Assembly (NCBI GenBank): GCA_015709215.1 | Contig: JACCQN010000004.1 | Location: forward strand, 25,198-89,197 | From: Bacteroidales bacterium | GTDB lineage: Bacteria > Bacteroidota > Bacteroidia > Bacteroidales > F082 | Length of the DNA stretch: 64,000 bases | Direction: 5' to 3' | Shown: positions 23,238-47,751 of the stretch, one piece after another | Layout of the letters: each line of letters opens with the position of its first letter | Numbering within the stretch: position 1 is the stretch's first letter | The notes under the pieces: generated by a model | The model's input: only the letters and a program-made list of their open reading frames with translations | The model's database searches: none | Told to the model about the DNA's origin: nothing | Program-made: the position numbers and the translations under genes

Positions 23238-24203
23238 TTAAAAAACAGCTTCAGCAATTTTCCTGATATTATCCGAACGCCCCATGGTGTAAAAATGCAA
23301 AACAGCTGTGTTTTTTGCAATGAGTTCTTTGGCTTGCATAATCGCCCATTCAACGCCCAATTCACGAACAGCTTGATTGTTTTTACAGCGGTTTAATTCT
23401 TTCACCAATGGTTCGGGCAGGTCGATATGAAAGGTTTGGGGCAATTTATGCAGGTGCGAGAGAACCGAAACAGGTTTAATACCTGCAATAATAGGCACAT
23501 CAATGCCAGCAGAGCGACATTTGTTAACAAAGTTGAAATATTTCTGGTTATCAAAAAACATTTGAGTAATAATATAGGATGCACCTGCATCTATTTTGGC
23601 TTTCAGATGTTGCAGATCGCTTTCAATATTGGGTGATTCCATATGTTTTTCGGGATAGCCGGCAACGCCTATGCAAAAATTGGTTGGCGTTGAATTTAGC
23701 AGATTGTCTTCCAGGTATTTTCCCTGATTGAGGTTTTGAACCTGTTTTACCAGATCAATGGCGTGAGCATGGCCGCCGGGTTCGGGCTGAAAATATTTCA
23801 CCGAAGGCTGTGGGTCGCCACGCACAATCAACAGATTTTTCACTCCAAGAAAATGCAAATCAATCAGGGCGTTTTCGGTTTCTTCGCGGGTGAAACCACC
23901 GCAGATAATATGTGGCACTACGTTGGCATGATAACGGTACATCAATGCAGCAGCAATACCAACGGTTCCGGGGCGTTTGCGAACAGTTTTCTTTTCTAGC
24001 AATCCATTGGCAAGCTGTTTGTACTCAAACTCTTCCTGATGATACGTAACATTCACAAAAGCAGGTTTGAAATCCATAAGAGGCTCCACTGCTTGTTGGA
24101 TATGCTCAAAATGCTGGCCTTTAAGTGGTGGTAAAATTTCAAACGAAAACAAGGTTTTGTCCGATTTTGCAATTTGTGAAGTAACGCTGGGTAGTTCTTG
24201 CAT
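23238..24203 (-). CDS. metF: Methylenetetrahydrofolate reductase
   Basis: 321 residues. This flavoenzyme reduces 5,10-methylene-THF to 5-methyl-THF, the methyl donor for MetH. The TIM-barrel pattern begins with FSFEILPPLKG (20-30), then FVNVTYH, HIICGGFTREE, LLIVRGDPQP, and the QMFFDNQKYFNFV segment. It is 3 bases downstream of metH, so the two enzymes acting in succession are co-transcribed and should both be under the SAM riboswitch. Confidence 0.96.
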   Translation of the reverse strand: MQELPSVTSQIAKSDKTLFSFEILPPLKGQHFEHIQQAVEPLMDFKPAFVNVTYHQEEFEYKQLANGLLEKKTVRKRPGTVGIAAALMYRYHANVVPHIICGGFTREETENALIDLHFLGVKNLLIVRGDPQPSVKYFQPEPGGHAHAIDLVKQVQNLNQGKYLEDNLLNSTPTNFCIGVAGYPEKHMESPNIESDLQHLKAKIDAGASYIITQMFFDNQKYFNFVNKCRSAGIDVPIIAGIKPVSVLSHLHKLPQTFHIDLPEPLVKELNRCKNNQAVRELGVEWAIMQAKELIAKNTAVLHFYTMGRSDNIRKIAEAVF

Positions 24204-27200: not shown

Positions 27201-27884
27201 AACGGTTTGTCCCGAAAGGGTTCGTCCACTGGTATCGGTGATAGTTCCCGACATCATCACGCCAAGTTTTTGGCCAAGCTTTTCCTGAAGGTTTTGCACA
27301 GCAAAAAGCGCTGCCTTGGCATTCAGTGTATCGAAAACTGTTTCAATCAATAACACATCAGCTCCGCCAGCAATAAGAGCTTCGGCTTGTTCGAAGTAAG
27401 TTTCGACCAGCTGATCAAAAGTAACAGAACGATATCCGGGATCGTTAACATCCGGCGACATAGATGCGGTTTTATTGGTGGGACCTAATGCTCCAGCTAC
27501 AAAACGAGGCTTGTCGGGTTGCTTTGTGGAATATTCATCAGCAGCTTTTCGGGCCAGTTGAGCTGAAGCGAAATTCAATGCTTTCACTTGATTTTCCAGG
27601 CCATAATCAGCCTGCGAAATACGGTTGGCATTAAAAGTATTGGTTTCGATGATATCGGCACCTGCTTCCAGATAAGCGCAATGAATCTTATAGATAAGTT
27701 CGGGATGTGTGAGTGATAATAAATCGTTATTCCCTTGCTGAGGCATAGGATGATCGGCAAAAAGTTCCCCGGCATAATCTTCCGGTTTAAGTTTTTCTTC
27801 CTGTATCATCGTGCCCATAGCACCATCGAGTACGAGTATTTTTGTTTTTAGGAGGTCTTTAAGTTGTTCGAGTCGGGTTTTCAT
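24207..27884 (-). CDS. metH: Cobalamin-dependent methionine synthase
   Basis: 1225 residues, full length. It transfers the methyl group of methyl-THF to homocysteine via methylcobalamin. Domains in order: homocysteine-binding barrel (about 1-330; zinc site includes GGCCGTTP near 310), pterin-binding barrel (about 355-620, starting around [16 protein letters not shown]), cobalamin cap (about 640-735), cobalamin-binding domain with DVHDIGKN (His757 is the expected lower axial ligand), and the SAM-binding reactivation domain (about 900-1225, including [13 protein letters not shown]). The product needs B12. Expression is likely repressed by high SAM through the riboswitch in its 5' leader. Confidence 0.98.
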
Positions 27885-27984
27885 GGTGTATTAGGTTGGG
27901 CAGCAAAGCATTCACCAAATGGTGATTGATAGTTAATCAGATTCGATGTTGCAAGTAGTTGCTGCATGGGTTTTTACTCATTTA

Positions 27985-28092
27985 ATTTATTATCACCTGA
28001 CCAAAAGGCCGGTTTAGGTATTAGCACCACTCCTTTTCCGGAAGGTTGCTAGAGCTTCGTTGAGCCTAGTCTCTCCACTCTTCTTTATAAAT
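27985..28092 (-). ncRNA. SAM-I-type (S-box) riboswitch controlling metH-metF
   Basis: On the minus strand the leader has the S-box core: AGAGTGGAGAGACTAGGC, then GAAGCTCTAGCAACC, and AGTGGTGCTAATACC. Outer strands ATTTAT (28087-28092) and ATAAAT (27985-27990) can pair as helix P1, enclosing about 108 bases. About 100 bases separate it from the metH ATG. I see no hairpin followed by a long U-run there. A GCAA-CTAC-TTGC stem and a CACC-ATTT-GGTG stem near the start codon suggest control of translation rather than termination. Subclass is from recall of the motif; a covariance search would settle it. Confidence 0.88.
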
Positions 28093-28143
28093 CAAACAGA
28101 CCCTTACAAATGACTGAGGAGGTCGATTTGAAATACGCAAGTG

Positions 28144-30481: not shown

Positions 30482-30745
30482 ATGAAGAAACGCTGGTTAA
30501 ATCATTTGAAGCTTCTGTTATTATTTGTTGTCCTGTTGATTATTTTTCAGGCTTGTAGCTTATTGGAGCGTTCGGGTGCAACGAAAAAAAATGAAAGGTT
30601 AGAACAGAAATTGGAACAAGAGGCTCAAAAGGAATATAAACAGGCACAAAAGCAGCATATTGATCGACAATCAGAAGCTACAAAAAGGATGATGAAAGCA
30701 ATGGAACGAAAAAACAAAAAATGGCTAAAGACCAAAAAGCGGTAA
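30482..30745 (+). CDS. Small basic lipoprotein overlapping the propeller sensor kinase
   Basis: 87 residues. The N-terminal hydrophobic stretch ends in a lipobox (FQAC, Cys26), followed by a strongly charged Lys/Glu/Gln helix (about 35-87). The protein is likely anchored by lipid with a helical, basic tail in the periplasm. The last 25 bases overlap the start of the large sensor kinase in another frame, so the two genes are almost certainly co-translated. Similar small Lys-rich lipoproteins occur in Bacteroidota; function unknown. A role as a partner of the adjacent sensor is a guess from the overlap. Confidence 0.75.
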   Translation: MKKRWLNHLKLLLLFVVLLIIFQACSLLERSGATKKNERLEQKLEQEAQKEYKQAQKQHIDRQSEATKRMMKAMERKNKKWLKTKKR

Positions 30746-33700
30746 CAGGGTTAAGGTTTCTGGAATCCTGGCTAAAAGCTTTTGAGCAGCCGGCATTCAT
30801 TATTTTATGGAGTGTGACGTTTTTTGTTGTGAATAGCCTGAATCTATCAGCGCAATTACCCGACCAGCTTTTTTTTGAAAGGATTTTATCTGAAAATGTG
30901 CGAATCGAGAAAGGCTTAAGTCAAAACACAGTGAATACCATGCTTCAGGATGCGGATGGTTTTATGTGGTTTGGCACCTGGGATGGCCTGAATCGTTATG
31001 ATGGTTACGAGTTTTTAATCTACAACAGGCAAAATGGATTGAGTAATGAAACGATTCGGGCATTGCTTCAACGAAACGACACGCTATGGGTTGGAACAGA
31101 AGAAGGACTCAATCTGTTGAAAATGTCAACAGGAGAAATTCATAAGTTCCATCACGATGAGGGAGATTCTACCAGCTTGAGCAGTAATATGATCAACCAT
31201 ATTTTTGAAGATCATTTGGGTACAATCTGGATCAGTACGGCCGAAGGATTATCAGCTTACCGGCCATTGCAGCAAAATTTTTCCAGAGTAATCAGCATGG
31301 ATTATGGAAATCCGATGAGAAGTAATTTTATAAACATGACCACGCAGGATACTGCAAATAATTACTGGATTGCCACAAGTTATGGCCTGGTTTTGTATGA
31401 AATAGAAAATCAAAGACTAACACGGTATTTCCACATACCTGACGACCTTAACTCATTACCCGACAATCATGTGAATGCCTTGGCATTTGATCAGCAACAA
31501 CGTATGTGGGTCGGTACCAAAGCAGGGCTCTGTCTTTATCAGCCACTATCCCGCAATTTTAAAATAGTAGATGAAGAGAACGGCTTGAAACCGGAAATTA
31601 CTACAATTCATATTGATGGTGATCAAGGTCTTTGGTTAGGAACAAATGGTTCAGGATTATATTATTATGATTTTGATAAAGAAACCTTTAGCCACTATAC
31701 ACACATAGCAAACAGGGCTTATTCTATTTCCGATAACAGGATTTACTCTCTTTATAGTGATCATTATCAAAATCTATGGGTTGGTACGTTTAACGGATTG
31801 AATAAACTCGACAAACGATCACCCAAATTCAGACTCTACCGATCGCAACAAGAGGTTAAAAACAGCTTGGCAAATAATTCGGTTTGGGCCTTTTGGGAGG
31901 AGAAGCCCGGTAAAATTTGGATTGGGACAGATCAGGGTTTGACGGTTGTAGATAAAAATAACAACAGTTATGAATTTGTTATTCCCAGAAATGATGAAGA
32001 AATGGATTTGTCACAAAATCTTGTCCGAAGCATCTTTCAAGACAGTGAGGGCATCTTTTGGATAGGCTTTAGAAACAAAGGTTTAAGTCGCTATGATCCA
32101 ATAAAAAAAACATTTCGACATTTTGAATCAAACCCCAGGAACCCCAGAACTTTACCAGATAATTATGTTACTGCTATTAAGGAGGATAGCCTTGGACGAA
32201 TTTGGATTGCCACAGAGAATGGCCTGGCACGATTAAACCAAAATGAAAAAGATTTCACTGTTTTTAGGCATCAGCCCAATAATAGCCGAAGCTTGCCGGC
32301 TGATCGCCTATACGATCTGTACATTGATACTTTGGGTAGGTTTTGGCTTGCAACGGCTTCCGGCTTAGCAATATACAACTATAATACAGATAGTTTTACA
32401 ACAATACAAAGCAACGATCCCAAGCGTGAACTTTATGCTACAGGCGGCGACAAGTTGTTTTCAATTACAGCGCATAAAGACGGGAGTTTGTGGATGGGAA
32501 CGCGTGGCGAAGGTTTGTTGCGCTATGATCCTGCAACCGGAAAATTTAACCGTTTCACAGAGCAGGATGGACTGCCTAATAATGTGACCTACAAAGCCCT
32601 GGAAGATAGCGAAGGAATAATCTGGATCACAACAAACTGGGGACTTTCACGTTTTAATCCAAACGATTCCAGTTTTAGTAATTATGATGTTACAAATGGA
32701 TTACAAAGCAACGAATTCAACCTTAATGCTGCCTTGATTGCTTCTGATGGAGAAATTTTTATTGGTGGCATGAACGGATATAATGCCTTTTATCCTGAGG
32801 ATATAACTGTAAACTCAACTCCGCCTCCGGTAAGAATCACTGCATTCAAGAAATTTAATATGCTGCAGCAAGGAAATTTAAGAGATGGTGATACAATCAT
32901 TCTAAATTATGATGATAATTATTTTGCTTTCGAATTTGCAGCCTTGGATTTTACGAATCCATACAAGAATAAATACCGTTTTATTCTGGAAAATTATAAT
33001 AAAAACTGGATAGAACGTGATGCCAGTCAGCGATTTGCAGAGTTTGCAAGAGTAAATCCAGGTACCTACAACTTTAGATTGTTGGCCTCAAATAGTGACG
33101 GATATTGGAATCTTAAAGGCATCAATCTGATCATCGTTATTTTGCCCGCATGGTATGATACCTGGTGGTTTAGAGGCTTGGTAGTTTTGCTATTCATTTT
33201 TTTGCTTTATGGTCTGATTGTGATCAGAATGAATGCTTTGCGCAAAAAACATGAAGTGGAGAAAAAGTATCTGGCATTTGAAAAACAAATGTATCAGTTG
33301 GAACAGAAAGCACTTCAGCTGCAGATGAATCCGCATTTTTTGTTCAACTCGATCAATAGCATTCAAAGTTTTGTGGTGAATAATGATATTGATAATGCCA
33401 TTCATTATCTTTCCAAATTTTCGCAATTGATGCGGCGGATTTTGAGCAATTCGGGCGAGAGTTTTGTTCCATTGCGTGATGAGTTGCAGGCTTTGAGACT
33501 TTATCTTGAGATAGAAAGCTTACGTTTTCATGGAAAATTTTCGTTCGACATTCAAATGGATCCCGAAATCGATGATAACTTTCTTGAGATACCGCCTATG
33601 ATTCTTCAACCTTATGTGGAGAATGCTATTTTACACGGCCTGATGCACAGCCCCAAAAAAGGTCATTTGCAGATTTCACTTACACTCAATGGAGATAATG

Positions 33701-33930
33701 TATTATGTGTGATACAAGATGATGGAATCGGGCGTGAGCGGGCGGCACAAATCCGCAAAGAATCCGGTATCGAACGAAAATCGCGCGGCATGCTAATCAC
33801 TCAAGAGCGGCTTGACATCCTCAATCAATATAGCGAGGATATTTATACCGTAAACGTGATTGACTTGCATGATAAAGATGGCCAGGCAGCCGGAACACGT
33901 GTTGAAATAAGAATTCATTATAAAGAGTAA
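30721..33930 (+). CDS. Two-component propeller sensor histidine kinase (LytS-type kinase)
   Basis: 1069 residues. An N-terminal hydrophobic segment (about 26-45) precedes roughly fourteen propeller blades (about 65-690) with the recurring pattern W-I/V-G-T-x-x-G-L-x-x-Y/L, which forms a large extracytoplasmic sensor. A Y_Y_Y domain follows (about 720-795), then one membrane span (about 817-839), a coiled coil, and a His_kinase domain with QMNPHFLFNSINS (phospho-acceptor His872) and an ATPase domain (PYVENAILHGL, DDGIGR). Such sensors often respond to glycans, but no glycan-degradation genes lie beside it here. The LytTR regulator follows 24 bases downstream. Confidence 0.94.
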   Translation: MAKDQKAVTGLRFLESWLKAFEQPAFIILWSVTFFVVNSLNLSAQLPDQLFFERILSENVRIEKGLSQNTVNTMLQDADGFMWFGTWDGLNRYDGYEFLIYNRQNGLSNETIRALLQRNDTLWVGTEEGLNLLKMSTGEIHKFHHDEGDSTSLSSNMINHIFEDHLGTIWISTAEGLSAYRPLQQNFSRVISMDYGNPMRSNFINMTTQDTANNYWIATSYGLVLYEIENQRLTRYFHIPDDLNSLPDNHVNALAFDQQQRMWVGTKAGLCLYQPLSRNFKIVDEENGLKPEITTIHIDGDQGLWLGTNGSGLYYYDFDKETFSHYTHIANRAYSISDNRIYSLYSDHYQNLWVGTFNGLNKLDKRSPKFRLYRSQQEVKNSLANNSVWAFWEEKPGKIWIGTDQGLTVVDKNNNSYEFVIPRNDEEMDLSQNLVRSIFQDSEGIFWIGFRNKGLSRYDPIKKTFRHFESNPRNPRTLPDNYVTAIKEDSLGRIWIATENGLARLNQNEKDFTVFRHQPNNSRSLPADRLYDLYIDTLGRFWLATASGLAIYNYNTDSFTTIQSNDPKRELYATGGDKLFSITAHKDGSLWMGTRGEGLLRYDPATGKFNRFTEQDGLPNNVTYKALEDSEGIIWITTNWGLSRFNPNDSSFSNYDVTNGLQSNEFNLNAALIASDGEIFIGGMNGYNAFYPEDITVNSTPPPVRITAFKKFNMLQQGNLRDGDTIILNYDDNYFAFEFAALDFTNPYKNKYRFILENYNKNWIERDASQRFAEFARVNPGTYNFRLLASNSDGYWNLKGINLIIVILPAWYDTWWFRGLVVLLFIFLLYGLIVIRMNALRKKHEVEKKYLAFEKQMYQLEQKALQLQMNPHFLFNSINSIQSFVVNNDIDNAIHYLSKFSQLMRRILSNSGESFVPLRDELQALRLYLEIESLRFHGKFSFDIQMDPEIDDNFLEIPPMILQPYVENAILHGLMHSPKKGHLQISLTLNGDNVLCVIQDDGIGRERAAQIRKESGIERKSRGMLITQERLDILNQYSEDIYTVNVIDLHDKDGQAAGTRVEIRIHYKE

Positions 33931-33954
33931 ATTTGTTGACATAAAACCGAAAAT

Positions 33955-34701
33955 ATGATCAGAGCCATTATCATTGAAGATGAATTAAAATCCAGAGAAA
34001 CCTTGCGTGGATTGCTAAGTCGTTTTTGTAAAGATGTGTTGGTTTGTGCCGAAGCCGGTGGAGTGCAATCCGGTAAGGAAGCCATACAGGAGCATCAACC
34101 CGATTTGGTTTTTTTGGATATCGAAATGCCCGATGGCAGTGGTTTTCGATTGCTGGAGCGACTTGATGAGATCAATTTTGAAATCATCTTCACAACCGCA
34201 TTTGAGCAGTTTGCAATAAAAGCCATCCGTTATGCAGCGCTTGATTATTTGCTCAAACCTATTGTTCCCGAAGAGCTTGTTGCAGCCGTAGAAAAGGTTA
34301 AGCTGCTTAAGGAAAAGAAAAACAATCAGAAACAGATAGAGGTTTTACTTAATAACATCAATCAGGATGTACTGGAGTCGAAAAAAATTGTTTTGTCAAC
34401 CTCCGAAAAGATTCACGTAGTAGCAATGGATGACATTATTCGCTGTGAATCGGATAATTATTACACGCATTTTTATTTTAAAGACGGGGGTCATCTCTTA
34501 ATCAGTAAAACACTGAAAGATGTTGAAAGCTTGCTGCAAGAAGGAAATTTTATCAGGCCGCACAAATCACACCTTATTAATACAAGGTATATCCGGAATT
34601 TTAATCGCGATCAGGTAGCAATAATGCTTTCTGATGGAAGTATGATTCCTGTTTCACGGCGAAAAAAAGAAAAAATTTTAGAAATCATAAATCAACTTTA
34701 A
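33955..34701 (+). CDS. LytTR-family response regulator
   Basis: 248 residues. The receiver covers about 1-120 with acidic pocket IIEDE and phospho-acceptor Asp55 (FLDIEMPDGSG). A LytTR DNA-binding domain covers about 145-245, with DIIRCESDNYYTHFYF and FIRPHKSHLINTRYI typical of the family. It is the cognate partner of the propeller sensor kinase upstream (24-base gap). Targets are not evident; binding sites of this family are direct repeats that I could not identify here. Confidence 0.94.
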   Translation: MIRAIIIEDELKSRETLRGLLSRFCKDVLVCAEAGGVQSGKEAIQEHQPDLVFLDIEMPDGSGFRLLERLDEINFEIIFTTAFEQFAIKAIRYAALDYLLKPIVPEELVAAVEKVKLLKEKKNNQKQIEVLLNNINQDVLESKKIVLSTSEKIHVVAMDDIIRCESDNYYTHFYFKDGGHLLISKTLKDVESLLQEGNFIRPHKSHLINTRYIRNFNRDQVAIMLSDGSMIPVSRRKKEKILEIINQL

Positions 34702-35290: not shown

Positions 35291-35340
35291 GGATTTGTTA
35301 AGCTTTTGAGAACTTTTTTACGATAGCCTGTCTGTTTTTC

Positions 35341-35372
35341 TTGGATAGTAAAATGAATTATTTCTATCTTTA
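35341..35372 (+). promoter_or_regulatory. Candidate promoter of the TonB receptor module
   Basis: TTG (35341-35343) and TATCTTTA (35365-35372), spaced 21 bases, fit the Bacteroidota pattern with one mismatch in the -7 box. Transcription would start near 35380, about 40 bases before the receptor ATG. Confidence 0.5.
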
Positions 35373-35420: not shown

Positions 35421-38400
35421 ATGTTGAGAAATTTACTGTTAACTCTGTGTATAGTATTGACGTCCTGGACGTTAGCGCTAGCTCAGCAAGGAAGATTACA
35501 AGGTAAAGTTTACGAGAAAGACAGCCGGGAACCTATCCCATTTGCCAATATCGTGCTCGAAAATGGCGGAACAGTGGTGGGAGGTGCTACCTCAGATTTT
35601 GACGGGAACTACGTTATTAACCCGATTCCTCCGGGGAAATATGATCTGAAAGCCACTTTTGTGGGTTACAATCCGGTCACTGTTACGGGAATTAATATTC
35701 CCGGTAACAAGATCACTTTTTACGATATTGTAATGAGTAGCTCCTCAATTAATCTTGAGACTGTCGAAATTATTGAATACAAGGTGCCGTTGATTTCCAA
35801 AGACCAGACAACCTCTGGTGCATCAGTAACTTCTGAGGAAATTAAGAAAATGCCTAACCGATCTGCCGATGCAGTTGCAGCAACAGTTGGGGGTGTTTTT
35901 TCACAGGATGGTGAGCGTGGTAATGTTCGCGGTGCCCGTTCGGATGCAACAGCTGTTTATATTGATGGTGTGCGCGTTATCGGATCCGGAAGCGTGCCAC
36001 AATCGGCTATCGAACAGGTAGATGTGATCCTGGGCGGAACTCCTGCACAGTATGGTGATGCAACTGGCGGTATTATCAATGTAACAACAAAAGGACCTTC
36101 GCGTAAGTTTGGAGCTGGCGTTGAACTTGAAACATCTGAACTGCTTGATGCTTACGGAAGTAACAGGCTTGGATTCAATATCCAGGGGCCATTGCTTAAA
36201 GGGAAAAAGCAGGAAACTGCTTTGCTGGGGTTTTTTATTGCTGGTGATATCAACTATAACCGCGATGGAAGAATTTCAGGCTTAGGTTATTATAGTGCCA
36301 ATGATGCTACTTTGTCATTTATTTCTGCAAATCCTCTCAGACCCACCGGAATTGGTTCCGGAACCTTAAGGAATGGTGAATTTGTAAGAGCAGCAGATTT
36401 GAAACACTCAAAAAGTTCTTTGAATACCGATCGTTATGGGATTAATCTCTCGGGTAATATTAATATCAGAACTACAGAAACCATCAACCTTACTATTGGC
36501 GGTACGTTTAACAAATCAAAAGGTGATGCCTACAGCTATTCGGGGTCATTTTTTAACTACGACAAAAACACACGTTTTGATAATAATACCTGGCGTGTTT
36601 TCGGACGTTTCACGCAACGTTTTCCCACAGATAACGAAAGCAGTTCGATAGTTAAAAATATTTATTACTCTATTCAGGCCGACTATACCCGTGAAAAAAA
36701 CACCTACGGAGATCCTAATCATTGGGATGATCTCTTTAAATATGGATATCTTGGGAAATATCAAATTCACAGAACTCCATCATTTGAATTGGCAAGCGAT
36801 ACTGTCAACGGACATTATTACCAGGATGTACAGTTCCTGAGAACCTGGAACTTTGACACACTTGTTAGTTGGACACCTGCTGATATCAACCCCTTGGTTG
36901 CAAATTATACTACAAGTTATTTCGATTCTTATGCCGGCAAACCTGATGGTCATTTTGAAAACTTCACACAAATGCAGCTGGGTGGCGCTTTGCTGAATGG
37001 TGATTCACCTCAGGCATTTTATGGTTTGTATCAGGCTCCCGGTACAAACCAGAGCGGATATGGCTTTTCGGATAATGATCAGTTTAGTATTAACGTGGCC
37101 GGTTCGATGGATATCGGAAATCATGAAGTGAAGCTTGGATTTCAGTACGAACAACGAATGAACAGAAATGTGAGTTATGCTCCTACCAGGCTTTGGTCAT
37201 TAATGAGAGGTCTCACCAACTTCCACATCATGGAAATTGATACCGATAACCCATTCCTGATTAGTTATGATGGTATTGTTGATACAGTTATGTATTACAG
37301 GCGATACGATGAGTTATCGCAACGGACTTTTGATAAAAATTTAAGGTTAAAACTGGGATTGCCTGTAGATGGCCTCGATTATATTAACATTGATTCCTAT
37401 GATTTTAATAACAACAGCATTGAGTATTTTGATAAAGAGGGAAAAGTACATGTTATTAATCTGGGTTCTGAATTGTTTGATATCAGTATGTTCAGTCCTG
37501 ATGAATTATTGAATGATGGTAGTTATTATACAATGTATTCGGGATATGACTATACAGGCAAAAAGTTGACTTCACAACCAAGTTTCGACGACTTTTTTAA
37601 TGCCCGTGACGAGAACGGCATGTACACCAGACCAATCGGTGCTTTTCAACCCGTTTATCTGGCAGGTTATATTCAGGATAAATTTGCATTCAGAGACCTT
37701 ATATTTAATGTAGGTGTACGGGTGGACCGTTTTGATGCAAACCAAAAAGTTTTGAATGATCCCTATTTGCTTTTTAATGCCTATACCGCCGGTGAAGTTA
37801 CAAATATAAAAGGACAACCGGTACGCCATCCTGCAGGTATTGGCAGCGATTATGTGGTTTATGTAAATGACGTAAGGAATCCCTCCGAAATTGTTGGATA
37901 TCGGTCAGGGAATACCTGGTATAATGCTAATGGTGCCGAAATTCAGGATCCGTCTTTATTGGATGTTGGCTCCGGTATTTCACCTTTCCTGGTTAATTCG
38001 GATCAACAGAGAGCTGATATCAATTCATTTAAAGATTATGAGCCTCAATGGAGTGTGATGCCTCGAATTTCATTCTCTTTTCCAATCTCGGATGAGGCTT
38101 TGTTCTTTGCTCACTATGATGTTTTAACCCAACGTCCAACGAGTAATTTATTCTCAAATCCAGCCACCTATTATTTCTTCGAAAGTATTAACGATGTGAT
38201 TAATAATCCTGCACTTAAACCATCGCAAACTATTGATTATGAACTTGGTTTTACTCAAAAGTTAACTAATTCATCCTCTATCACTTTGACCTCATTCTAT
38301 CGCGAGATGCGCGATATGATTCAGATTTACCGTTTTAATGGTGCCTATCCAAAGGACTATACTTCATTTAATAACCTTGACTTTGGTACGGTAAAGGGTT

Positions 38401-39125
38401 TAACTGTGGAATATGATTTAAGACGTACTGGCAATGCCCGTTTGCGTGCAAGCTATACCTTACAATTTGCCAATGCAACAGGTGCTTCTACTACAACAGC
38501 AGAATCACTTATTGCTGCCGGTTTGCCAAATCTGCGTTCAACTATTGCAATGCCGTGGGACAGACGTCATCAGTTTAATGTTTTACTGGATTATCGTTAT
38601 GGCAAGGGTAAAGAGTATAACGGACCGCTGATCCGTCGCGAGAAAAAGGACAAAGCACCGGTTCAATTGTTAAATAATACCGGTTTTACACTCACAGTTT
38701 TAGGAGGTTCCGGGACGCCTTATACAGCTTCACGAAACGTAATTTCACCTATTAGTGGTGGCAACCGGTTGCTTGATGGTTCTTATTTTGGATCACGACT
38801 TCCATGGCAATTCCGTCTGGATTTGAGGATTGATAAAGATATTGATATAAATTTTAAATCAAAGGATGGAAATCAAAGGCCTGCTTATTTGAATGTGTAT
38901 CTTCAAGTGCTTAATCTGCTTGATACCAGGAATGTGATTTCAGTGTATTCAGCAACGGGTAATGCTGATGATGATGGATATCTTTCAGCACCTGATTGGC
39001 AGAGTCAGATAAATACTCAAATAGACCCAATCGCCTTTAGAGAGTTATATAGCATATTTGTTAATAATCCTGCAAATTATAGTGCTCCCCGACAGATTAG
39101 ATTAGGAGTAATGTTCAATTTCTAA
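35421..39125 (+). CDS. TonB-dependent outer-membrane receptor
   Basis: 1234 residues. A signal peptide (1-21) is followed by a carboxypeptidase regulatory-like domain (about 24-110, GRLQGKVYEKDSREPIPFANI), a plug domain (about 130-235, with VRGARSDATAVYIDGVRV and GGIINVTTKGPSR), and a large beta-barrel ending in an aromatic C-terminal strand (IRLGVMFNF). No SusD-type lipoprotein is next to it, so it is not a classical starch-utilisation pair. The next gene, 49 bases downstream, encodes a 1448-residue secreted protein, and a PorV-like barrel follows. The substrate is unknown. Confidence 0.94.
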   Translation: MLRNLLLTLCIVLTSWTLALAQQGRLQGKVYEKDSREPIPFANIVLENGGTVVGGATSDFDGNYVINPIPPGKYDLKATFVGYNPVTVTGINIPGNKITFYDIVMSSSSINLETVEIIEYKVPLISKDQTTSGASVTSEEIKKMPNRSADAVAATVGGVFSQDGERGNVRGARSDATAVYIDGVRVIGSGSVPQSAIEQVDVILGGTPAQYGDATGGIINVTTKGPSRKFGAGVELETSELLDAYGSNRLGFNIQGPLLKGKKQETALLGFFIAGDINYNRDGRISGLGYYSANDATLSFISANPLRPTGIGSGTLRNGEFVRAADLKHSKSSLNTDRYGINLSGNINIRTTETINLTIGGTFNKSKGDAYSYSGSFFNYDKNTRFDNNTWRVFGRFTQRFPTDNESSSIVKNIYYSIQADYTREKNTYGDPNHWDDLFKYGYLGKYQIHRTPSFELASDTVNGHYYQDVQFLRTWNFDTLVSWTPADINPLVANYTTSYFDSYAGKPDGHFENFTQMQLGGALLNGDSPQAFYGLYQAPGTNQSGYGFSDNDQFSINVAGSMDIGNHEVKLGFQYEQRMNRNVSYAPTRLWSLMRGLTNFHIMEIDTDNPFLISYDGIVDTVMYYRRYDELSQRTFDKNLRLKLGLPVDGLDYINIDSYDFNNNSIEYFDKEGKVHVINLGSELFDISMFSPDELLNDGSYYTMYSGYDYTGKKLTSQPSFDDFFNARDENGMYTRPIGAFQPVYLAGYIQDKFAFRDLIFNVGVRVDRFDANQKVLNDPYLLFNAYTAGEVTNIKGQPVRHPAGIGSDYVVYVNDVRNPSEIVGYRSGNTWYNANGAEIQDPSLLDVGSGISPFLVNSDQQRADINSFKDYEPQWSVMPRISFSFPISDEALFFAHYDVLTQRPTSNLFSNPATYYFFESINDVINNPALKPSQTIDYELGFTQKLTNSSSITLTSFYREMRDMIQIYRFNGAYPKDYTSFNNLDFGTVKGLTVEYDLRRTGNARLRASYTLQFANATGASTTTAESLIAAGLPNLRSTIAMPWDRRHQFNVLLDYRYGKGKEYNGPLIRREKKDKAPVQLLNNTGFTLTVLGGSGTPYTASRNVISPISGGNRLLDGSYFGSRLPWQFRLDLRIDKDIDINFKSKDGNQRPAYLNVYLQVLNLLDTRNVISVYSATGNADDDGYLSAPDWQSQINTQIDPIAFRELYSIFVNNPANYSAPRQIRLGVMFNF

Positions 39126-39174
39126 TGACTTGTCTGGTGTATTCAAAAATTAATAATTTAAAGCTGTTGTAATA

Positions 39175-42100
39175 ATGAAAAATATTTCCAAATTGGTTTT
39201 ATCAATGGTATTTATACTTGCGGTAGTTAAATATGATTACGCTCGTGAGTACCAAGGTAATGATATGAATAATAAATCCAGTGGATTAAAGGAAACATCA
39301 GCAGGTTGTTCACCCTCTTCTGCATTTGAATGGCTTGATATAAATAATGTAAGGGCACGTATTAATGCCGGAGGTGATATGTGGTGGGACCTGGATGGTA
39401 TTTCCAGGTATTATGTTCCCAAAAGTGGATCTGCAACTTCTATGTATAGCGGTGCTCTTTGGATTGGCGGATTGGATATTAATAATCAATTAAAACTAGC
39501 CGCACAGCGTTTTAGGCAAGGACCAGATTTAAATGGTGGTGTGGATTTTTGGACAGGTCCTCTGACTATTGACGGTACTGCTGCAATCGATGAAACTGTT
39601 TGTGCACAATACGACAGATTGTTCAAGATGAACAGGGCTTTGGTTGATGAGTTTTTGTCGCATACTGACCCTATCACAGGGGCTTTTATACCCAGTGATG
39701 ATTATACTATTCCGACCGAAATTCTGGAATGGCCTGCTCATGCTGATATCTCAAAAAAGCAGAGTTATTACTTGGCTCCTTTTTATGATATTGACGGTGA
39801 CGGTGAATACAATCCTTTTGCAGGAGATTATCCTTACTACGATATTGACAATAGCCTCTGTCACACCAAAACTCCAACCATGGATGAATCAATTGAAGGT
39901 TCTATTAATGGATCCATATTGGCTGACCAGGTAATCAAAGGAGACCAGACTTTGTGGTGGGTTTTCAATGATAAGGGTAACATACATACCGATTCTGAAG
40001 GTGCTGCTATTGGACTCGAGATTAGAGCGCAAGCTTTTGCTTTTGCTACCAATGATGAGGTAAATAATATGACATTCTATAGTTATGAGATCATTAACCG
40101 CTCAACGTTTGAACTTACGGAAACTTATTTCTCTCCCTGGGTTGACCCCGATTTGGGATATGCCAGGGATGATTATGTCGGTTGTGATGTTGGGCGTGGC
40201 TTAGGTTATGCCTATAACGGTACTGCTGTTGATGGTAGCGGAGAACCAGAAGCCTATGGAGAACAGCCTCCGGCTATTGGAGTTGACTTTTTCCAGGGAC
40301 CTTATCTGGATCCCGATATCTTGGATAATCCTAAATACCGTTTTATTATTGATCAGGCAACTGGTGACACAATTGGCAGAGAGCAATTGTGCGATGTGAG
40401 TATTAATGGTGTGAATTTCGGAAACGGGATCGTTGATGATGAGCGCTACGGCATGCGTCGTTTTGTGTATTACAATAATAGTAATGACCCAATCAATGGA
40501 GAACCCAGACAAGCCGGACACTATTACAATTATTTAAGAGGTATCTGGAAGAACGGCCAGAAAATGAGATATGGCGGTGACGCTGTTAATACCGGAGTTC
40601 TTGAGGATGTTACTGCTGATTTTATGTTCCCGTTTGATTCAGATCCATGCAATTGGGGAACTAACGGCATAAATCCAGAAGGCTATAATAGCGATGGTGT
40701 TTATTGGAGTGAAGAAAGCGAAAACAATCAACCTGAAGACCGTCGTTTTATGCAATCTGCAGGCCCGTTTACCCTAAAGCCCGGAGCTGTTAACTACATT
40801 ACTGTGGGTATTCCATGGGCACGTGCTGTTTCTGGTGGTCCATTTGCTTCAGTTCAATTATTAAGACGTGTTGACGATAAAGCTCAAACACTATTTGACA
40901 ACTGTTTCAAAGTAATCGACGGTCCTAACGCACCTGACCTTAGTTTTCAGGAACTTGACAAGGAGCTGATTGTTTATATTTCAAACTCACCCTCCTCAAA
41001 CAATTTTGGTGAGAACTACCTGGAATTTGATCCCAATATAGTACAACCACATCCTGACGATCCTTCTAAAAGAAGTGATTCACTTTATCGTTTCGAAGGT
41101 TATCAGATTTTCCAACTTAAAGATCCAACTGTTGGGGTTGAAAGTATTCATGATCCTGATAAAGTGAGGCTTGTAGCCCAGTTTGATAAAAAGAACGGGG
41201 TAAGTAAGTTGGTAAATTTTTACTATGATGAATTGATTGAAGCTAATGTACCTGTTATTGAAGTGAGTGGTGGTGACAATGGAATTCAACACTCTTTCAA
41301 GCTTTCACAGGATGCCTTTGCTCAGGGTGATGTGCAACTGGTAAATCACAAACAGTATTATTATATGGCAATTGCTTATGCCTATAATGAATATATGCCT
41401 TATTCGCAGGATCCTGGTGTTTTAAATGGTTTGTTAGGACAAAAAACTCCTTATTTGGCTGGCCGTAAGAATATTAAAACTTATACGGCCATTCCTCATA
41501 AGACTGTCAATGGTATTATTGCCAAAGCAGACTATGGCAATGGCCCGGAAATCACACGGCTTGCTGGCCATGGTAATGGAGGCCAGGAGTTAGAATTGAA
41601 ACCTGAAGTGATAGATGAGATTTTGAGTAAAGATCCTGCCAGCGAAGATAATATATTTGGTAGTCCTAATTATCCTATCGCCTATAATCCGGTTTATATG
41701 GAGGGACATGGCCCGATTAATGTAAAAGTTATCGATCCGCTTAATGTTGTGAGTGCCGAATATGAACTCACTTTTGATACTCTACGTTATTTACGTTTGT
41801 ATAATGTAACTGGTGATCCTGCGGTGAGAGGAGATACTGCCAGCAAGTATATCTCCAACTGGATGTTGAAAGATGTTAATACTGGTGAATCCTATACTTC
41901 TGATACAACTACACTTGAAGATTATGAGCAATTGTTTTTGGATCGTGGTATATCGATTACGATCAAACAGCCTTATAAGCCTGGTGTTTACAAAGTTGGT
42001 AATAATACTAATAACCAATTTTATGAGCGAACTTTAGCACCAGGTAATGGATTTATTACCGCAAATATAATTTATAAGGATAGCTCGAGAAGGTGGCTCG

Positions 42101-43521
42101 ATGGCATCAGGGATGAAGATGTTCCTGGCTCGCCATTAAACTGGATACGTTCAGGAACATTTAAGGATCAAGATAATTCATCTGCATTGAATGAAGACTG
42201 GAGGATGTCGTATTCGCAGGATGTGCCCGACAGACCCTGGGATGCAAATGAAGATTTTGAGCAAATTTTGTTTGGAACCTGGGCGCCTTACTCCTTAACA
42301 GCTTATGGTAATACATTTGTTCCAAGTGAACCAGCACAAAGTACAGTAGGGCCGGCTTACAGCAGGGATTCAAAGGTAAGTAACAGCCTTAATGACCTTT
42401 TCAGTGTTGATATCGTTTTAACTCCCGATAAATCAAAATGGAGCCGCAGTCCGGTGCTCGAAATGTCTTATGATCAGGTTCTGGCTGAGGGCAATGCTCC
42501 CAGGTTTGGCCTGCGTAAATCACCTTCTGTGGATCAGCAGGGAAATCCTGCCGCCTCAATGGATATGGAACCCAGTAATAATCCTAACGATCCTAACTAT
42601 ATCGGAAGTTATGGAATGGGATGGTTCCCAGGCTATGCCATTAACGTTGAAACAGGTGAAAGGTTGAATATCATGTTTGGCGAAGATTCTTATCTCTCCA
42701 AACAAAATGGTCGTGACATGTTATTTAATCCACCTCCAAGGGATATGGATGTTAGTCAGATGGCTGACCCCAATATTATCACACCGGTAGGTGGCAGTCC
42801 GGTTATGGGTGGCAAACACTATGTTTACATCATGGGTCACGAAGAAAATATTTATGAGCTGTTTAATATGGAATTCAAATCACCGGCCTACGATGCAGGC
42901 AGATATGCTTTTAGCGTTCTTGATACTTTGTTTAATCCTGTGTCGCCTGTAGTTCCAACGGTGTCTTCCTATTTCTATACTGCAATTAAGTATGTTGGTA
43001 TGCCCATGCCTGTATTAGGACAGGAATGGTTGAGCAATGAGACTAGAATACGAATTAGGGTAGCAAGACCTTACGAACGTTATTATTCTAAATTGCCGTT
43101 AGATACTATATATGATGGCATGGACGTAAATCAGTTCTATCCTAAGTATGCATTTAGCACGCAGGGAATAGCAACTGAATATCGAGATCCGGATAAACTG
43201 CAAACAGATCTTGACTTAATTAGTGTGGTTCCAAACCCATATTATGCATATTCTTCGTACGAGAGAAATGCGCTTGATAACCGTGTAAAAATTACTAATT
43301 TGCCTGAGCAGTGTGTGATAACTATTTATAATATGAGTGGTACAAGAATCAGACAGTTCAAGAAAGATGAACCTAAGACTTCCATAGACTGGGATTTGAA
43401 GAATTTTGCCGGCGTGCCTATTGCCAGTGGTATTTATCTGATCCATGTCAAATCAGAGGATGGTGAACGCGTCATCAAGTGGTTTGGTTCTTTGCGTCCG
43501 ATGGATTTGAATACTTTCTAG
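39175..43521 (+). CDS. Giant secreted protein with type IX-like C-terminal domain
   Basis: 1448 residues. A signal peptide (about 1-24) precedes an N-terminal block with VRARINAGGDMWWDL and a GALWIGGLD segment that I recognise from large Bacteroidota proteins of unknown function. The body is rich in Asp, Asn and Tyr with many short repeats of loop-like DxDxDG sequences (DIDGDGEYNP), suggesting calcium binding. The last 85 residues form a beta-sandwich-like tail (VVPNPYYAYS, ITIYNMSGTRIRQF, WDLKNFAGVPIASGIYLIHV) that resembles type IX secretion C-terminal signals, then an unusual extension ending LRPMDLNTF. No catalytic motif was recognised. It lies between a TonB receptor and a PorV-like barrel, 49 and 39 bases apart. 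Confidence 0.85.
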   Translation: MKNISKLVLSMVFILAVVKYDYAREYQGNDMNNKSSGLKETSAGCSPSSAFEWLDINNVRARINAGGDMWWDLDGISRYYVPKSGSATSMYSGALWIGGLDINNQLKLAAQRFRQGPDLNGGVDFWTGPLTIDGTAAIDETVCAQYDRLFKMNRALVDEFLSHTDPITGAFIPSDDYTIPTEILEWPAHADISKKQSYYLAPFYDIDGDGEYNPFAGDYPYYDIDNSLCHTKTPTMDESIEGSINGSILADQVIKGDQTLWWVFNDKGNIHTDSEGAAIGLEIRAQAFAFATNDEVNNMTFYSYEIINRSTFELTETYFSPWVDPDLGYARDDYVGCDVGRGLGYAYNGTAVDGSGEPEAYGEQPPAIGVDFFQGPYLDPDILDNPKYRFIIDQATGDTIGREQLCDVSINGVNFGNGIVDDERYGMRRFVYYNNSNDPINGEPRQAGHYYNYLRGIWKNGQKMRYGGDAVNTGVLEDVTADFMFPFDSDPCNWGTNGINPEGYNSDGVYWSEESENNQPEDRRFMQSAGPFTLKPGAVNYITVGIPWARAVSGGPFASVQLLRRVDDKAQTLFDNCFKVIDGPNAPDLSFQELDKELIVYISNSPSSNNFGENYLEFDPNIVQPHPDDPSKRSDSLYRFEGYQIFQLKDPTVGVESIHDPDKVRLVAQFDKKNGVSKLVNFYYDELIEANVPVIEVSGGDNGIQHSFKLSQDAFAQGDVQLVNHKQYYYMAIAYAYNEYMPYSQDPGVLNGLLGQKTPYLAGRKNIKTYTAIPHKTVNGIIAKADYGNGPEITRLAGHGNGGQELELKPEVIDEILSKDPASEDNIFGSPNYPIAYNPVYMEGHGPINVKVIDPLNVVSAEYELTFDTLRYLRLYNVTGDPAVRGDTASKYISNWMLKDVNTGESYTSDTTTLEDYEQLFLDRGISITIKQPYKPGVYKVGNNTNNQFYERTLAPGNGFITANIIYKDSSRRWLDGIRDEDVPGSPLNWIRSGTFKDQDNSSALNEDWRMSYSQDVPDRPWDANEDFEQILFGTWAPYSLTAYGNTFVPSEPAQSTVGPAYSRDSKVSNSLNDLFSVDIVLTPDKSKWSRSPVLEMSYDQVLAEGNAPRFGLRKSPSVDQQGNPAASMDMEPSNNPNDPNYIGSYGMGWFPGYAINVETGERLNIMFGEDSYLSKQNGRDMLFNPPPRDMDVSQMADPNIITPVGGSPVMGGKHYVYIMGHEENIYELFNMEFKSPAYDAGRYAFSVLDTLFNPVSPVVPTVSSYFYTAIKYVGMPMPVLGQEWLSNETRIRIRVARPYERYYSKLPLDTIYDGMDVNQFYPKYAFSTQGIATEYRDPDKLQTDLDLISVVPNPYYAYSSYERNALDNRVKITNLPEQCVITIYNMSGTRIRQFKKDEPKTSIDWDLKNFAGVPIASGIYLIHVKSEDGERVIKWFGSLRPMDLNTF

Positions 43522-43560
43522 TTATTAATTGAAATGCGAACCAGAAATAAAAGATAGATT

Positions 43561-44634
43561 ATGAATACTTTTTATAGAACCATAGCTGCAATAAGCCTGG
43601 CAATTCTTGTAGGATTGATTAGTATGGAATCATTCGCAGGTAACAAGGACAGGTCGGGACAGGCTGGTGCATCAGAGCTTTTAATTAATCCCTGGGCACG
43701 AAGTACTGGATGGGGTAATGCCGGGATGGCCAGTATTAGAGGTCTCGAAGGTATATGGAGTAATGTGGGAGGCACTGCATTTACGAGGAAAACAGAGTTG
43801 ATCTTTTCGAATACTACCTGGCTAAAAGGATCTGATATCAGCATTTTCTCCTTTGGATTATCCCAAAGAGTTGGTGAAACAGGTGCATTTGGCCTTGCAG
43901 TGATGAGTATGAGTTTTGGTGATATACCCATTACAACAACTGAAAGTCCGGATGGAGGGATTGGTACCTATTCGCCTAACCTGATGAATATTAGCTTGTC
44001 ATATGCAAAATCCTTCTCAAATAGTATTCATGCTGGATTTGTGCTCAAAATTATCTCTGAGAGTATTTCAGATATGAGTGCTCAGGGAGTTGCAATTGAT
44101 GCAGGTATTCAGTATGTTACTGGTGAAAGGGAGAATATTCATTTTGGGATTACCCTTAAGAATATCGGACCAACAATGAGTTTTTCTGGTGACGGATTGT
44201 CGATCAAATCTTTTATCCCAGGCCGACCAGACGAAACCCAGTTTACGCTTGAACAACGTAAGGAAGCTTTTGAGCTGCCCACACAACTTTCAATAGCTGC
44301 AGCTTATGATTTCCTTTTTGAGAATGATTACCGTTTTACGCTGGCTGGGAACTTCACTTCTAATTCATTTACCAAAGACCAGATAACACTTGGAGGCGAG
44401 TTTTCACTTAAAGAATATCTGATGCTACGCGCTGGATATACCTATGAGGAGGGTATTGGGGATGATATCGAAAGTGTTGATCGTACCAATGTTGCAAAAG
44501 GGCTTAGTATGGGGCTTTCGGTTCAGGTGCCACTTAATAAGGAGAATGGTTCTGTATTTTCAGTGGATTATTCTTACAGAGATACAGATCACTTTAGTGG
44601 ATCACATACTATTGGTGCCAAAATAAGCTTCTAA
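43561..44634 (+). CDS. PorV/PorQ-family outer-membrane barrel protein
   Basis: 357 residues. A signal peptide (about 1-27) precedes ASELLINPWARSTGWGNAGMAS, the N-terminal pattern of PorV/PorQ proteins, where a PorV-type protein handles type IX cargo at the outer membrane. Alternating hydrophobic strands follow, ending in a C-terminal Phe (GAKISF). It is probably a FadL-like 14-strand barrel. It is the third gene of the TonB receptor module, so it may serve the giant secreted protein just upstream rather than general type IX export. That is inference from context; a general PorV is expected elsewhere in the genome. Confidence 0.85.
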   Translation: MNTFYRTIAAISLAILVGLISMESFAGNKDRSGQAGASELLINPWARSTGWGNAGMASIRGLEGIWSNVGGTAFTRKTELIFSNTTWLKGSDISIFSFGLSQRVGETGAFGLAVMSMSFGDIPITTTESPDGGIGTYSPNLMNISLSYAKSFSNSIHAGFVLKIISESISDMSAQGVAIDAGIQYVTGERENIHFGITLKNIGPTMSFSGDGLSIKSFIPGRPDETQFTLEQRKEAFELPTQLSIAAAYDFLFENDYRFTLAGNFTSNSFTKDQITLGGEFSLKEYLMLRAGYTYEEGIGDDIESVDRTNVAKGLSMGLSVQVPLNKENGSVFSVDYSYRDTDHFSGSHTIGAKISF

Positions 44635-44754
44635 ATAGCTCCCCTAAAATATTGGATCAGTGGGAAGCTTTTTCTGCTGATCCTTTACGTTTTAAGTGGA
44701 ATTTTAAAAAAACATAAAAACCCTTAGTAATTAGCCAATAAAAATTAAAAGTTT

Positions 44755-44904: not shown

Positions 44905-45378
44905 ATGTCTGAAACAAAGTATTTTACGCAGGAAGGACTGCAAAAGCTCAAAGATGAATTAGAAGAGTTAATGCTAAAGGAACGCCCTAAAATTTCTCAA
45001 ATGATTGCGGAGGCAAGAGATAAGGGTGATTTATCAGAAAATGCAGAGTATGATGCTGCCAAAGAAGCCCAGGGAATGCTCGAGCTTAAAATTTCCAGGC
45101 TTCAGCAATTAATTATGAATGCCCGTGTTATCGATGAGTCAAAAATGGATACTACAAAAGTGCTTTTGTTTTCGAAGGTGAAGATCAAAAACCTTAAGAA
45201 TGGTGCAATCATGAATTATATGCTTGTGCCGGAAAAAGAGGCTGACCTAAAAAGTGGTAAAATCTCTGTTAACTCTCCTATTGCAAAAGGCCTGCTTGGA
45301 AAAACGGTAGGCGAACGGGCTGAAATCATTGTGCCTGCCGGAGTGATGACTTTTGAAATTGTTGAAATTTCACGTTAA
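44905..45378 (+). CDS. greA: Transcription elongation factor GreA
   Basis: 157 residues, normal length. GreA stimulates RNA cleavage by backtracked RNA polymerase. The N-terminal coiled coil (about 1-75) carries the conserved tip GDLSENAEYDAAKE, whose acidic residues reach the active site. The C-terminal FKBP-like domain ends with SPIAKGLLGKTVGERAEI. A HIT-family gene follows 11 bases downstream, a common pairing in this phylum. Confidence 0.97.
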   Translation: MSETKYFTQEGLQKLKDELEELMLKERPKISQMIAEARDKGDLSENAEYDAAKEAQGMLELKISRLQQLIMNARVIDESKMDTTKVLLFSKVKIKNLKNGAIMNYMLVPEKEADLKSGKISVNSPIAKGLLGKTVGERAEIIVPAGVMTFEIVEISR

Positions 45379-45389
45379 ACGAAATTAAT

Positions 45390-45791
45390 ATGGCAACCTT
45401 ATTCACAAAAATTGTTCAGGGAGAAATTCCAGCTTATAAAGTAGCTGAGAATGATCGTTTTTTAGCTTTTTTGGATATAAATCCATTGGCTAAAGGCCAT
45501 ACGCTTGTTATTCCTAAAAAGGAGACAGATTATATCCTTGATATGGAAGACGAAGAACTTGCGGCCTTAATGGTATTTGCAAAAAAAGTTGGTCGTGCTA
45601 TTGAAAAACTAGTGCCATGCAAACGCATGGGTATCACCGTAATAGGCTTGGAAATACCTCATACGCATATTCACCTGATCCCGATCAATAGCATTTATGA
45701 TATGGATTTTAAGCAGCCTAAGCTGAAATTTACACCGGAAGAAATGGAACAGCTCAGTTTAGCAATACGAAATGCAGTGAGTTTAGACTAG
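45390..45791 (+). CDS. HIT-family nucleotide hydrolase/transferase
   Basis: 133 residues. The histidine triad HTHIHLI (IPHTHIHLIPI, about 89-99) defines the family; the middle His is the nucleophile. The N-terminal TLFTKIVQGEIPAYKVAEND and FLDINPLAKGHTLVIPK are usual for Hint-type proteins. Likely a hydrolase of adenosine phosphoramidate or similar nucleotides; the exact substrate is not predictable. Co-transcribed with greA. Confidence 0.93.
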   Translation: MATLFTKIVQGEIPAYKVAENDRFLAFLDINPLAKGHTLVIPKKETDYILDMEDEELAALMVFAKKVGRAIEKLVPCKRMGITVIGLEIPHTHIHLIPINSIYDMDFKQPKLKFTPEEMEQLSLAIRNAVSLD

Positions 45792-45811
45792 CGAATATCA
45801 AGGTTTTAGAC

Positions 45812-45851
45812 AACAGTAAAAGGCCGTCGATTTTCGATGGCCTTTGCTGTT
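45812..45851. terminator. Bidirectional terminator between the HIT and PurF-type genes
   Basis: AACAGTAAAAGGCCGTCGA pairs with TCGATGGCCTTTGCTGTT around TTT with few mismatches. It lies between convergent genes, reads into T-rich tails on either strand, and touches the stop codon of the minus-strand gene. Confidence 0.8.
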
Positions 45852-47751
45852 AATAGGCTCTTTCATCACGTCCCTCAATGAAGTTGATAAATGATTTGTT
45901 TACCACTTTGTTCCCGCCGGGTGTTGGGTAATCTCCAGTAAAGTACCAATCACCTTTATGATTGGGTATTGCAGCATGCAGATTTTCAATGGATTGATAT
46001 ACCACACTAACTTTTGATTTGATTTCGGGCGAGGTAATCATTGCAGCAATCTGTTCCGAAATCTGTTGAGCTGTGAAGGGTTTGTATATTTCTTTCACAT
46101 AATTTACGATGGATTCTTTTGGAAAATTTTCCTGGGCTTTACACTTTTTGTACACTTCGTTGATGATATATTCCTGATGTGTTGATTTTAGCAAGCTGAT
46201 AGTGGCTCTAAAGGCAATAAAATCACTCAATTTGGCCATGTCGATTCCGTAACAATCGGGATAGCGGATCTGTGGAGCCGATGAAGCGATTACAATGTGA
46301 TTGGGGCCAAGACGGTCTAAAATCCGAATGATACTATTACGCAGGGTAGTACCTCTTACGATGGAATCATCCAGCACCACCAGCGTATCTTCGCCGGCGC
46401 GAACAACGCCATAAGTTACGTCATAGATATGCGTAACAAGATCGTTACGTTGATTATCCTGAGTAATGAATGTGCGCAGTTTCATGTCTTTCACGGCAAT
46501 TTCTTCAATCCTGAGTTGGGTCGAGAAGATTTCATTCAATTGCTCCTGATTGATAGTTTGGCCGGCTGCCAGTATTTTATCTTTTTTTACTTCGACAAAA
46601 TGTCTGTTAAGCTCTTGCACCATGCCTCTGAAGGCAACAGAAGCAGTATTGGGGATATAAGAAAAAACAGTGTTTTTTATGTTGTGGTCAATTTCATACA
46701 GGATGGCAGGAACAAGCAGTTCGCCAAGCTTTTTGCGTTCCTTGTAAATATCGGCATCGGTACCCCGCGAAAAATAAATCCTTTCGAAAGAACAGGCTTT
46801 GCGTGGCAGCTTATCTTTACACCTTTCCTCACTGAAACGACCATCCTTTTTGATGATCAGTGCATGACCCGGCTCGATTTCCTTAATAGAATTGATAGGT
46901 ACATTGAAAGCTGTTTGTATGGGTGGCCGTTCTGATGTTGCAACCACAATTTCATCATCAGCATAATAATAAGCCGGACGAATGCCAGCTGGATCTCTGA
47001 ACACGAAAGCATCACCATGTCCCATCATCCCGGTGATCACATAACCACCATCCCAATATTGGGAGCTCTCAGTTAAAATAGCTTTTACATTTAGCTCCTC
47101 AGCAATTTTGAGTGAAATATCTCTTTTAGAAAGACCTGACTGCCTGTACTTTTTGTAAATACGTTCATTTTCGGTATCCAGAAAATGTCCAATCTTCTCT
47201 AAAACTGTCACAGTATCAGAGGTTTCAACCGGATATTGTCCTAATTCAACAAGTTTATCAAATAATTCGTCAACATTGGTCATATTGAAATTTCCGGCCA
47301 GAACCAAATTTCGCGTCATCCAGTTATTGGCTCTTACGAATGGATGCAGGTTCGTGATGTCGTTACTGCCAAATGTTCCATAACGCAGGTGCCCCATAAA
47401 CAATTCACCGCTAAAATCAACGTTATTTTTTAGCCAGTTTACATCTTTAAGCCTATCGGGGCGTTCAAGCTCGATAAGTTGAAGTTGATCATAAATATTA
47501 TTGAAAATCTCTTTTATGGGAGTATTGGAATTCGAACGAAGTCTGCTAATGTATTTATTTCCGGGCTCCAGGTCTAGCTTTATCCCTGCAATACCAGCTC
47601 CGTCCTGTCCTCTGTTGTGCTGCTTTTGCATTAAAAGGTGCAATTTTTGCAATCCGTAAAGGGCTGTGCCATATTTAGCAAGATAATATTCGAGGGGTTT
47701 GAGTAAACGAATGAATGCAATACCGCATTCATGTTTTATTTGGTCGCTCAT
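45850..47751 (-). CDS. purF: Long PurF-type amidophosphoribosyltransferase
   Basis: 633 residues, against about 470-510 for standard PurF. The N-terminal glutaminase domain has its nucleophile at Cys9 (MSDQIKHECGIAF), so an 8-residue leader must be removed or tolerated, and QHNRGQDGAGIAG is typical of the family. The PRPP-binding motif LVVLDDSIVRGTT identifies the transferase half. Such long proteins occur in Bacteroidota, sometimes beside a standard PurF. If a second copy exists elsewhere, this one may have a different role; the reaction, PRPP plus glutamine to phosphoribosylamine, is inferred from the motifs. On the coding strand a TAAATTTG box (47794-47801) lies about 45 bases upstream. 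Confidence 0.85.
   Translation of the reverse strand: MSDQIKHECGIAFIRLLKPLEYYLAKYGTALYGLQKLHLLMQKQHNRGQDGAGIAGIKLDLEPGNKYISRLRSNSNTPIKEIFNNIYDQLQLIELERPDRLKDVNWLKNNVDFSGELFMGHLRYGTFGSNDITNLHPFVRANNWMTRNLVLAGNFNMTNVDELFDKLVELGQYPVETSDTVTVLEKIGHFLDTENERIYKKYRQSGLSKRDISLKIAEELNVKAILTESSQYWDGGYVITGMMGHGDAFVFRDPAGIRPAYYYADDEIVVATSERPPIQTAFNVPINSIKEIEPGHALIIKKDGRFSEERCKDKLPRKACSFERIYFSRGTDADIYKERKKLGELLVPAILYEIDHNIKNTVFSYIPNTASVAFRGMVQELNRHFVEVKKDKILAAGQTINQEQLNEIFSTQLRIEEIAVKDMKLRTFITQDNQRNDLVTHIYDVTYGVVRAGEDTLVVLDDSIVRGTTLRNSIIRILDRLGPNHIVIASSAPQIRYPDCYGIDMAKLSDFIAFRATISLLKSTHQEYIINEVYKKCKAQENFPKESIVNYVKEIYKPFTAQQISEQIAAMITSPEIKSKVSVVYQSIENLHAAIPNHKGDWYFTGDYPTPGGNKVVNKSFINFIEGRDERAY

Follow-up and report, generated by a model that had tools for sequence, protein, structure and literature searches.

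A conserved trio of a TonB-dependent receptor, a giant predicted type IX cargo protein and a PorV-family barrel in the Bacteroidota

In Bacteroidota a TonB-dependent receptor often acts together with a large protein at the cell surface, and in the SusCD systems the receptor is encoded beside such a protein, the SusD-type lipoprotein. Large surface proteins may also be held by barrels of the PorV family, as in the attachment complex of the type IX secretion system (T9SS), where PorZ remains on PorQ and PorU on PorV, both with the C-terminal domain still in place (PMC10202324). A further arrangement is that of type B cargo in Flavobacterium johnsoniae, whose gene is directly followed by that of its own PorP/SprF barrel, the shuttle; here the cognate barrel sets the destination of the cargo and fixes its final place (PMC12618676). 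Finally, in Myxococcus xanthus the TonB-dependent transporter Oar is needed for secretion of the protease PopC (PMC6434023). We describe here a three-gene module that shares features with all four of these systems. Our search of the open-access literature found no earlier description of the trio, perhaps because, in the 296-genome set, it is often absent from the lineages that T9SS studies have sampled most.

The window analysed is a stretch of 64,000 nucleotides from a Bacteroidales bacterium (contig JACCQN010000004.1). On its forward strand lie the genes for a TonB-dependent receptor (35421-39125, 1234 aa), a giant protein that is a predicted T9SS cargo (39175-43521, 1448 aa) and an outer-membrane barrel of the PorV/PorQ family (43561-44634, 357 aa). 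The intergenic gaps are 49 and 39 bases, and a terminator-like hairpin with a 13-pair stem and a T-rich tail (44654-44683, forward strand) closes the unit 3' of the barrel gene, in agreement with the preliminary description of this locus as a tight three-gene unit. The single upstream promoter box given in that description was not recovered: a pattern search upstream of the receptor gene found no exact TTTG-N-TAnnTTTG consensus, and only imperfect, weak Bacteroidota-type matches occur near 35340-35372 on the forward strand (CTTG-N21-TATCTTTA, by pattern only).

The receptor opens with a CarboxypepD_reg-like domain (35496-35765, residues 26-115; PF13715, 55.3 bits against a cut-off of 32.2), followed by a plug domain (35802-36074, residues 128-218; PF07715, 39.4 bits against 23.9) that places it among the TonB-dependent receptors. 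It falls below the cut-off of the TonB_dep_Rec barrel model, and among solved structures only a 93-residue N-terminal fragment found a match. Neither inspection nor synteny revealed a SusD-like ORF next to it, as had been claimed from the outset, and none of the NCBIfam models for SusC/RagA matched; the locus is thus not a SusCD system on either count. The giant also differs from SusD-type partners in that a pattern search found no lipobox at its N terminus, which by eye is hydrophobic (a putative Sec signal peptide), and the anchor that we propose for it is the barrel and not a lipid.

Conservation of the gene order was followed in two sets of loci. The near set comprises 79 loci, obtained by scanning contigs of bacterial and archaeal genomes for the giant; here receptor, giant and barrel keep to one order, with neighbouring genes either a short distance apart or overlapping. 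Where the contig left room on the side in question, the receptor was found in 68 of 73 near loci and the barrel in 68 of 74. The distant set comprises 40 regions around listed matches to the giant profile, hand-picked along the list and not random, and includes giants that score less than 100 bits to the profile. Judged from gene order, chance linkage of the three genes is excluded, because the order is kept in 62 of the 68 near loci with room on both sides and in 36 of the 40 distant regions; the linkage in other genomes on which the preliminary description had staked its proposal is therefore borne out. There is no constant fourth gene at the module, the commonest neighbour family being present in 10 of the 36 distant loci.

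The exceptions are few. In five of the six near ones the genome holds partner orthologues even where the first-found giant stands apart from them, L085 being the sixth. Three of these loci (L083, L084 and L090) were discarded as counter-examples, as their first-found giant is an extra copy and complete trios lie elsewhere in the genome. In the genome of L088 one giant is paired with a TonB receptor and a second, about 45 kb away, with a barrel; that of L097 has a giant-barrel pair, and its receptor lies on a separate contig. Among the distant exceptions, one region ends at a contig edge (L174), two are extra giants (L190 and L191) in genomes that also hold the trio (L189 and L192), and the last, L200, has two giant genes in tandem (L200:5780-13490), with neither receptor nor barrel directly beside them.

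The three genes are also gained and lost together. A profile search found the giant in 91 of 296 genomes of the phylum, covering 68 of 140 genera. In a sample of 30 relatives from the order, three of whose non-carriers are less than 80% complete, all 10 giant carriers tested have a barrel orthologue (at least 455 bits) and a full-length receptor, and none of the 20 non-carriers has either (barrel match at most 38 bits, no receptor at 1e-20). The trio is hence a real, widespread and co-inherited three-gene module. The translocon gene sprA is present in all 91 genomes with the giant, against 137 of the 205 without it (Fisher p 2.6e-13, a value that ignores shared ancestry); the genome studied here has its sprA on contig C32, as is expected for a bearer of type A cargo. 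PorV and PorQ occur without the trio in some relatives, in family f1 and others, and since several non-carriers possess both, the trio is dispensable for the T9SS itself.

The barrel had been described as of PorV/PorQ type. Membership of the family stands (NF033709, 141 bits against a cut-off of 90), and identity with either named member does not: the barrel scores 71 bits against the PorV equivalog (NF033710, cut-off 250) and 65 bits against that of PorQ (NF033711, cut-off 220), and the genome has a separate PorV at G000:C6. A match of 22.6 to the PorP family (cut-off 90.55) also places it outside the PorP/SprF partners of type B cargo. A tree was built from 84 PorV-family proteins, with trio barrels picked for their position and by profile, and with PorV and PorQ taken from the order alone. 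In it the 54 trio barrels, 21 PorV and 9 PorQ each fall on one side of a branch, with support of 96/91, 100/99 and 100/99, respectively; PorV and PorQ meet on long branches, which makes the way these two join uncertain. By profile and by tree, then, the barrel falls outside both PorV and PorQ and belongs to a third clade, the tree speaking for this separation and not for the deep root.

The C-terminal sorting-like domain of the giant (43222-43518, forward strand; residues 1350-1448) scores 29.3 bits against the type A model TIGR04183, above the NCBI cut-off of 23, and 20.2 bits against PF18962, under the Pfam cut-off of 27, so that the type IX-like domain reported earlier is upheld by one model and not by the other. 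The type B model TIGR04131 gave no match at E 0.1. The resemblance to PorZ is confined to this stretch: the PorZ model NF052228 reaches 30 bits against a cut-off of 260, and only in the C-terminal stretch, in 45 of 55 homologues it gives the C-terminal part its best match to a known model, and Foldseek places PorZ (5m11) first, with the C-terminal domain of NucA from a translocon complex also among its matches. A search with the C-terminal 138 residues alone found no solved structure. On this evidence we class the domain as type-A-like, with that of PorZ as its closest counterpart.

What sets it apart is its end. Type A cargo is expected to end with the last strand of the domain, whereas the giant has a conserved extension of about 10 residues beyond the usual end (43489-43518, forward strand; the GSLRPMDLNTF region). 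In near giants 27-30 residues follow the GxY motif (70 measured), as compared to 17-21 where the type A domain is that of ordinary cargo from this genome (24 read, two of which gave 32 because the pattern caught an earlier GSF/GTF), and R1441 and D1444 of the tail are invariant in alignment A3. In 38 of 41 distant giants 27-34 residues follow the motif; the three that lack the extension (L197, L201 and L205) end at 20, and their barrels form the basal branch. The genome itself (G000) has 118 matches to type A sorting domains at E 0.01, a large set of T9SS cargo.

We posit, with a probability of roughly 0.5, that the giant is delivered by the T9SS, is kept on its own barrel and partners the TonB receptor, most likely for uptake. 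The giant would be exported by Sec and would then use its C-terminal domain to pass the outer membrane by way of the SprA translocon, to be collected by its own barrel, of the third PorV-family branch. It would not be released as ordinary cargo is; its C-terminal domain, with the extra tail, would stay on the barrel as that of PorZ does on PorQ. The displayed giant could then partner the co-encoded receptor, in place of the SusD-type lipoprotein of SusCD, and the role of the pair would most likely be nutrient uptake. What the genomes show is the gene order, the co-inheritance, the clade of the barrel, the features of the C-terminal domain and the confinement to genomes with sprA; the secretion route, the retention on the barrel, the receptor contact and the uptake we infer. 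That the barrel serves the giant, as first suggested from the sequence, is the most economical reading, because the linkage is conserved, the barrel forms a clade of its own in the PorV family, the C-terminal domain is type-A-like and the giant occurs only in genomes with sprA. The explanation as a whole draws further support from the all-or-none presence of the trio, from the PorZ-like domain with its conserved tail, from the distance matrices of the three proteins, which correlate beyond those of GreA and HIT, and from the precedent of type B cargo, whose destination is set by the cognate barrel (PMC12618676). Retention would follow from the likeness of that domain to that of PorZ, since PorZ and PorU keep theirs (PMC10202324). 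As for the role, uptake is the likeliest, given that the receptor belongs to the TonB-dependent transporters, a class often partnered by a large surface protein in this phylum.

Several observations count against this explanation. The type A score is weak, and under the Pfam cut-off. The trio is dispensable for the T9SS, and extra giants exist without the neighbours (L190, L191, L200). No clue to a substrate came from a riboswitch, none being found at the module, from a fourth gene or from the fold of the N-terminal half. The body of the giant, a phylum-wide family whose members are about 40-95% identical and usually single-copy in a genome, is most conserved in a core at about residues 250-570 (39922-40884, forward strand), where residues 251-350 average 81% identity across 73 sequences, and carries a DIDGDGEY loop (residues 205-212; 39787-39810, forward strand) that is calcium-binding-like by motif only. 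AlphaFold2 models in two overlapping pieces (pLDDT 80.6 for residues 28-765 and 88.0 for residues 560-1448) predict an all-beta protein with a large extracellular mass. Foldseek found no confident fold match outside the C-terminal domain, the core included, and we therefore claim no activity for the giant; the N-terminal half gave matches with a TM of at most 0.26, several of them to glycoside-hydrolase beta-supersandwich folds, which we do not count as a sign of an enzyme. Among solved structures the giant as a single sequence matched none, and its profile gave only a weak match to PorZ. Shorter proteins of about 690 aa in relatives (e.g. G007:C46, G020:C37 and G034:C208) match residues 47-573 of the giant only and, by the extent of this match, are a related family without the remainder.

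The predicted all-beta build and large extracellular mass would also suit an anchored coat or adhesin made of giant and barrel, with the receptor co-regulated and not in contact, and type B adhesins are known to be held statically by their cognate barrels (PMC12618676). We consider this unlikely, however, as the high conservation and usual single copy of the giant do not look like those of a variable adhesin, and the receptor is gained and lost together with the giant-barrel pair and keeps its place beside it. Somewhat less probable again is a dedicated cargo/barrel pair in which the receptor serves the export or assembly of the giant and not uptake, in the manner of Oar and PopC. The receptor has the CarboxypepD_reg and plug architecture of Oar (PMC6434023), and the TonB-giant pair has the tightest distance correlation once GreA and HIT are removed (receptor-giant 0.89, giant-barrel 0.76, receptor-barrel 0.74), values that may be inflated, as these control proteins are short and noisy and related genomes are not independent. 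Nevertheless, the Oar-type architecture is common in Bacteroidetes and so says little, the account of Oar involves neither a PorV-family barrel nor a T9SS (PMC6434023), and a giant that has a T9SS-type domain and tracks sprA would need no other exit route. The weakest reading makes the barrel a mere outer-membrane neighbour and has the giant ride the general PorV shuttle, to be cleaved and released as ordinary type A cargo, as its score over the TIGR04183 cut-off and the presence of PorV would allow, but it is improbable given a barrel that is strictly co-inherited with the giant and sits in a separate clade, and a C-terminal extension absent from ordinary cargo.

Retention of the giant on its own barrel, if true, would give the PorV family a third cognate pair and would mean that type-A-like cargo, and not only type B, can have dedicated shuttles. 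The trio is distinct from PorZ/PorQ in that the giant is PorZ-like only in its C-terminal domain, the barrel forms a separate clade and a TonB receptor is encoded with them; it differs from the type B pairs in its type-A-like domain, its PorV-family barrel in place of PorP/SprF and its leading TonB receptor gene. The trio would also bring type IX secretion and the TonB system of Bacteroidota together in one module. More tentatively, we suggest a phylum-wide and so far undescribed machine, in which an uncleaved giant on its own PorV-family barrel might form the external half of a TonB transporter, the T9SS taking the place of lipoprotein export for a SusCD-like complex. The giant-barrel pairing lends itself to direct tests, thanks to its all-or-none pattern and to the shortness of the C-terminal tail.

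Going by sequence and synteny, the module is flanked upstream by a sensor kinase/LytTR pair together with a 146-aa ORF, and downstream by greA, HIT and purF. The sensor kinase and LytTR regulator (30721-34701) may regulate the trio, since relatives of both sit upstream of it in many near loci. On the other side, greA, HIT and purF occupy 44905-47751, with purF on the opposite strand; greA and HIT are usually found 3' of the trio in near loci, greA in 65 of them. Farther upstream, a SAM riboswitch (RF00162, 64.8 bits; 27984-28093, reverse strand) precedes two genes (24207-27884 and 23238-24203), which are metH and a methylenetetrahydrofolate reductase gene.
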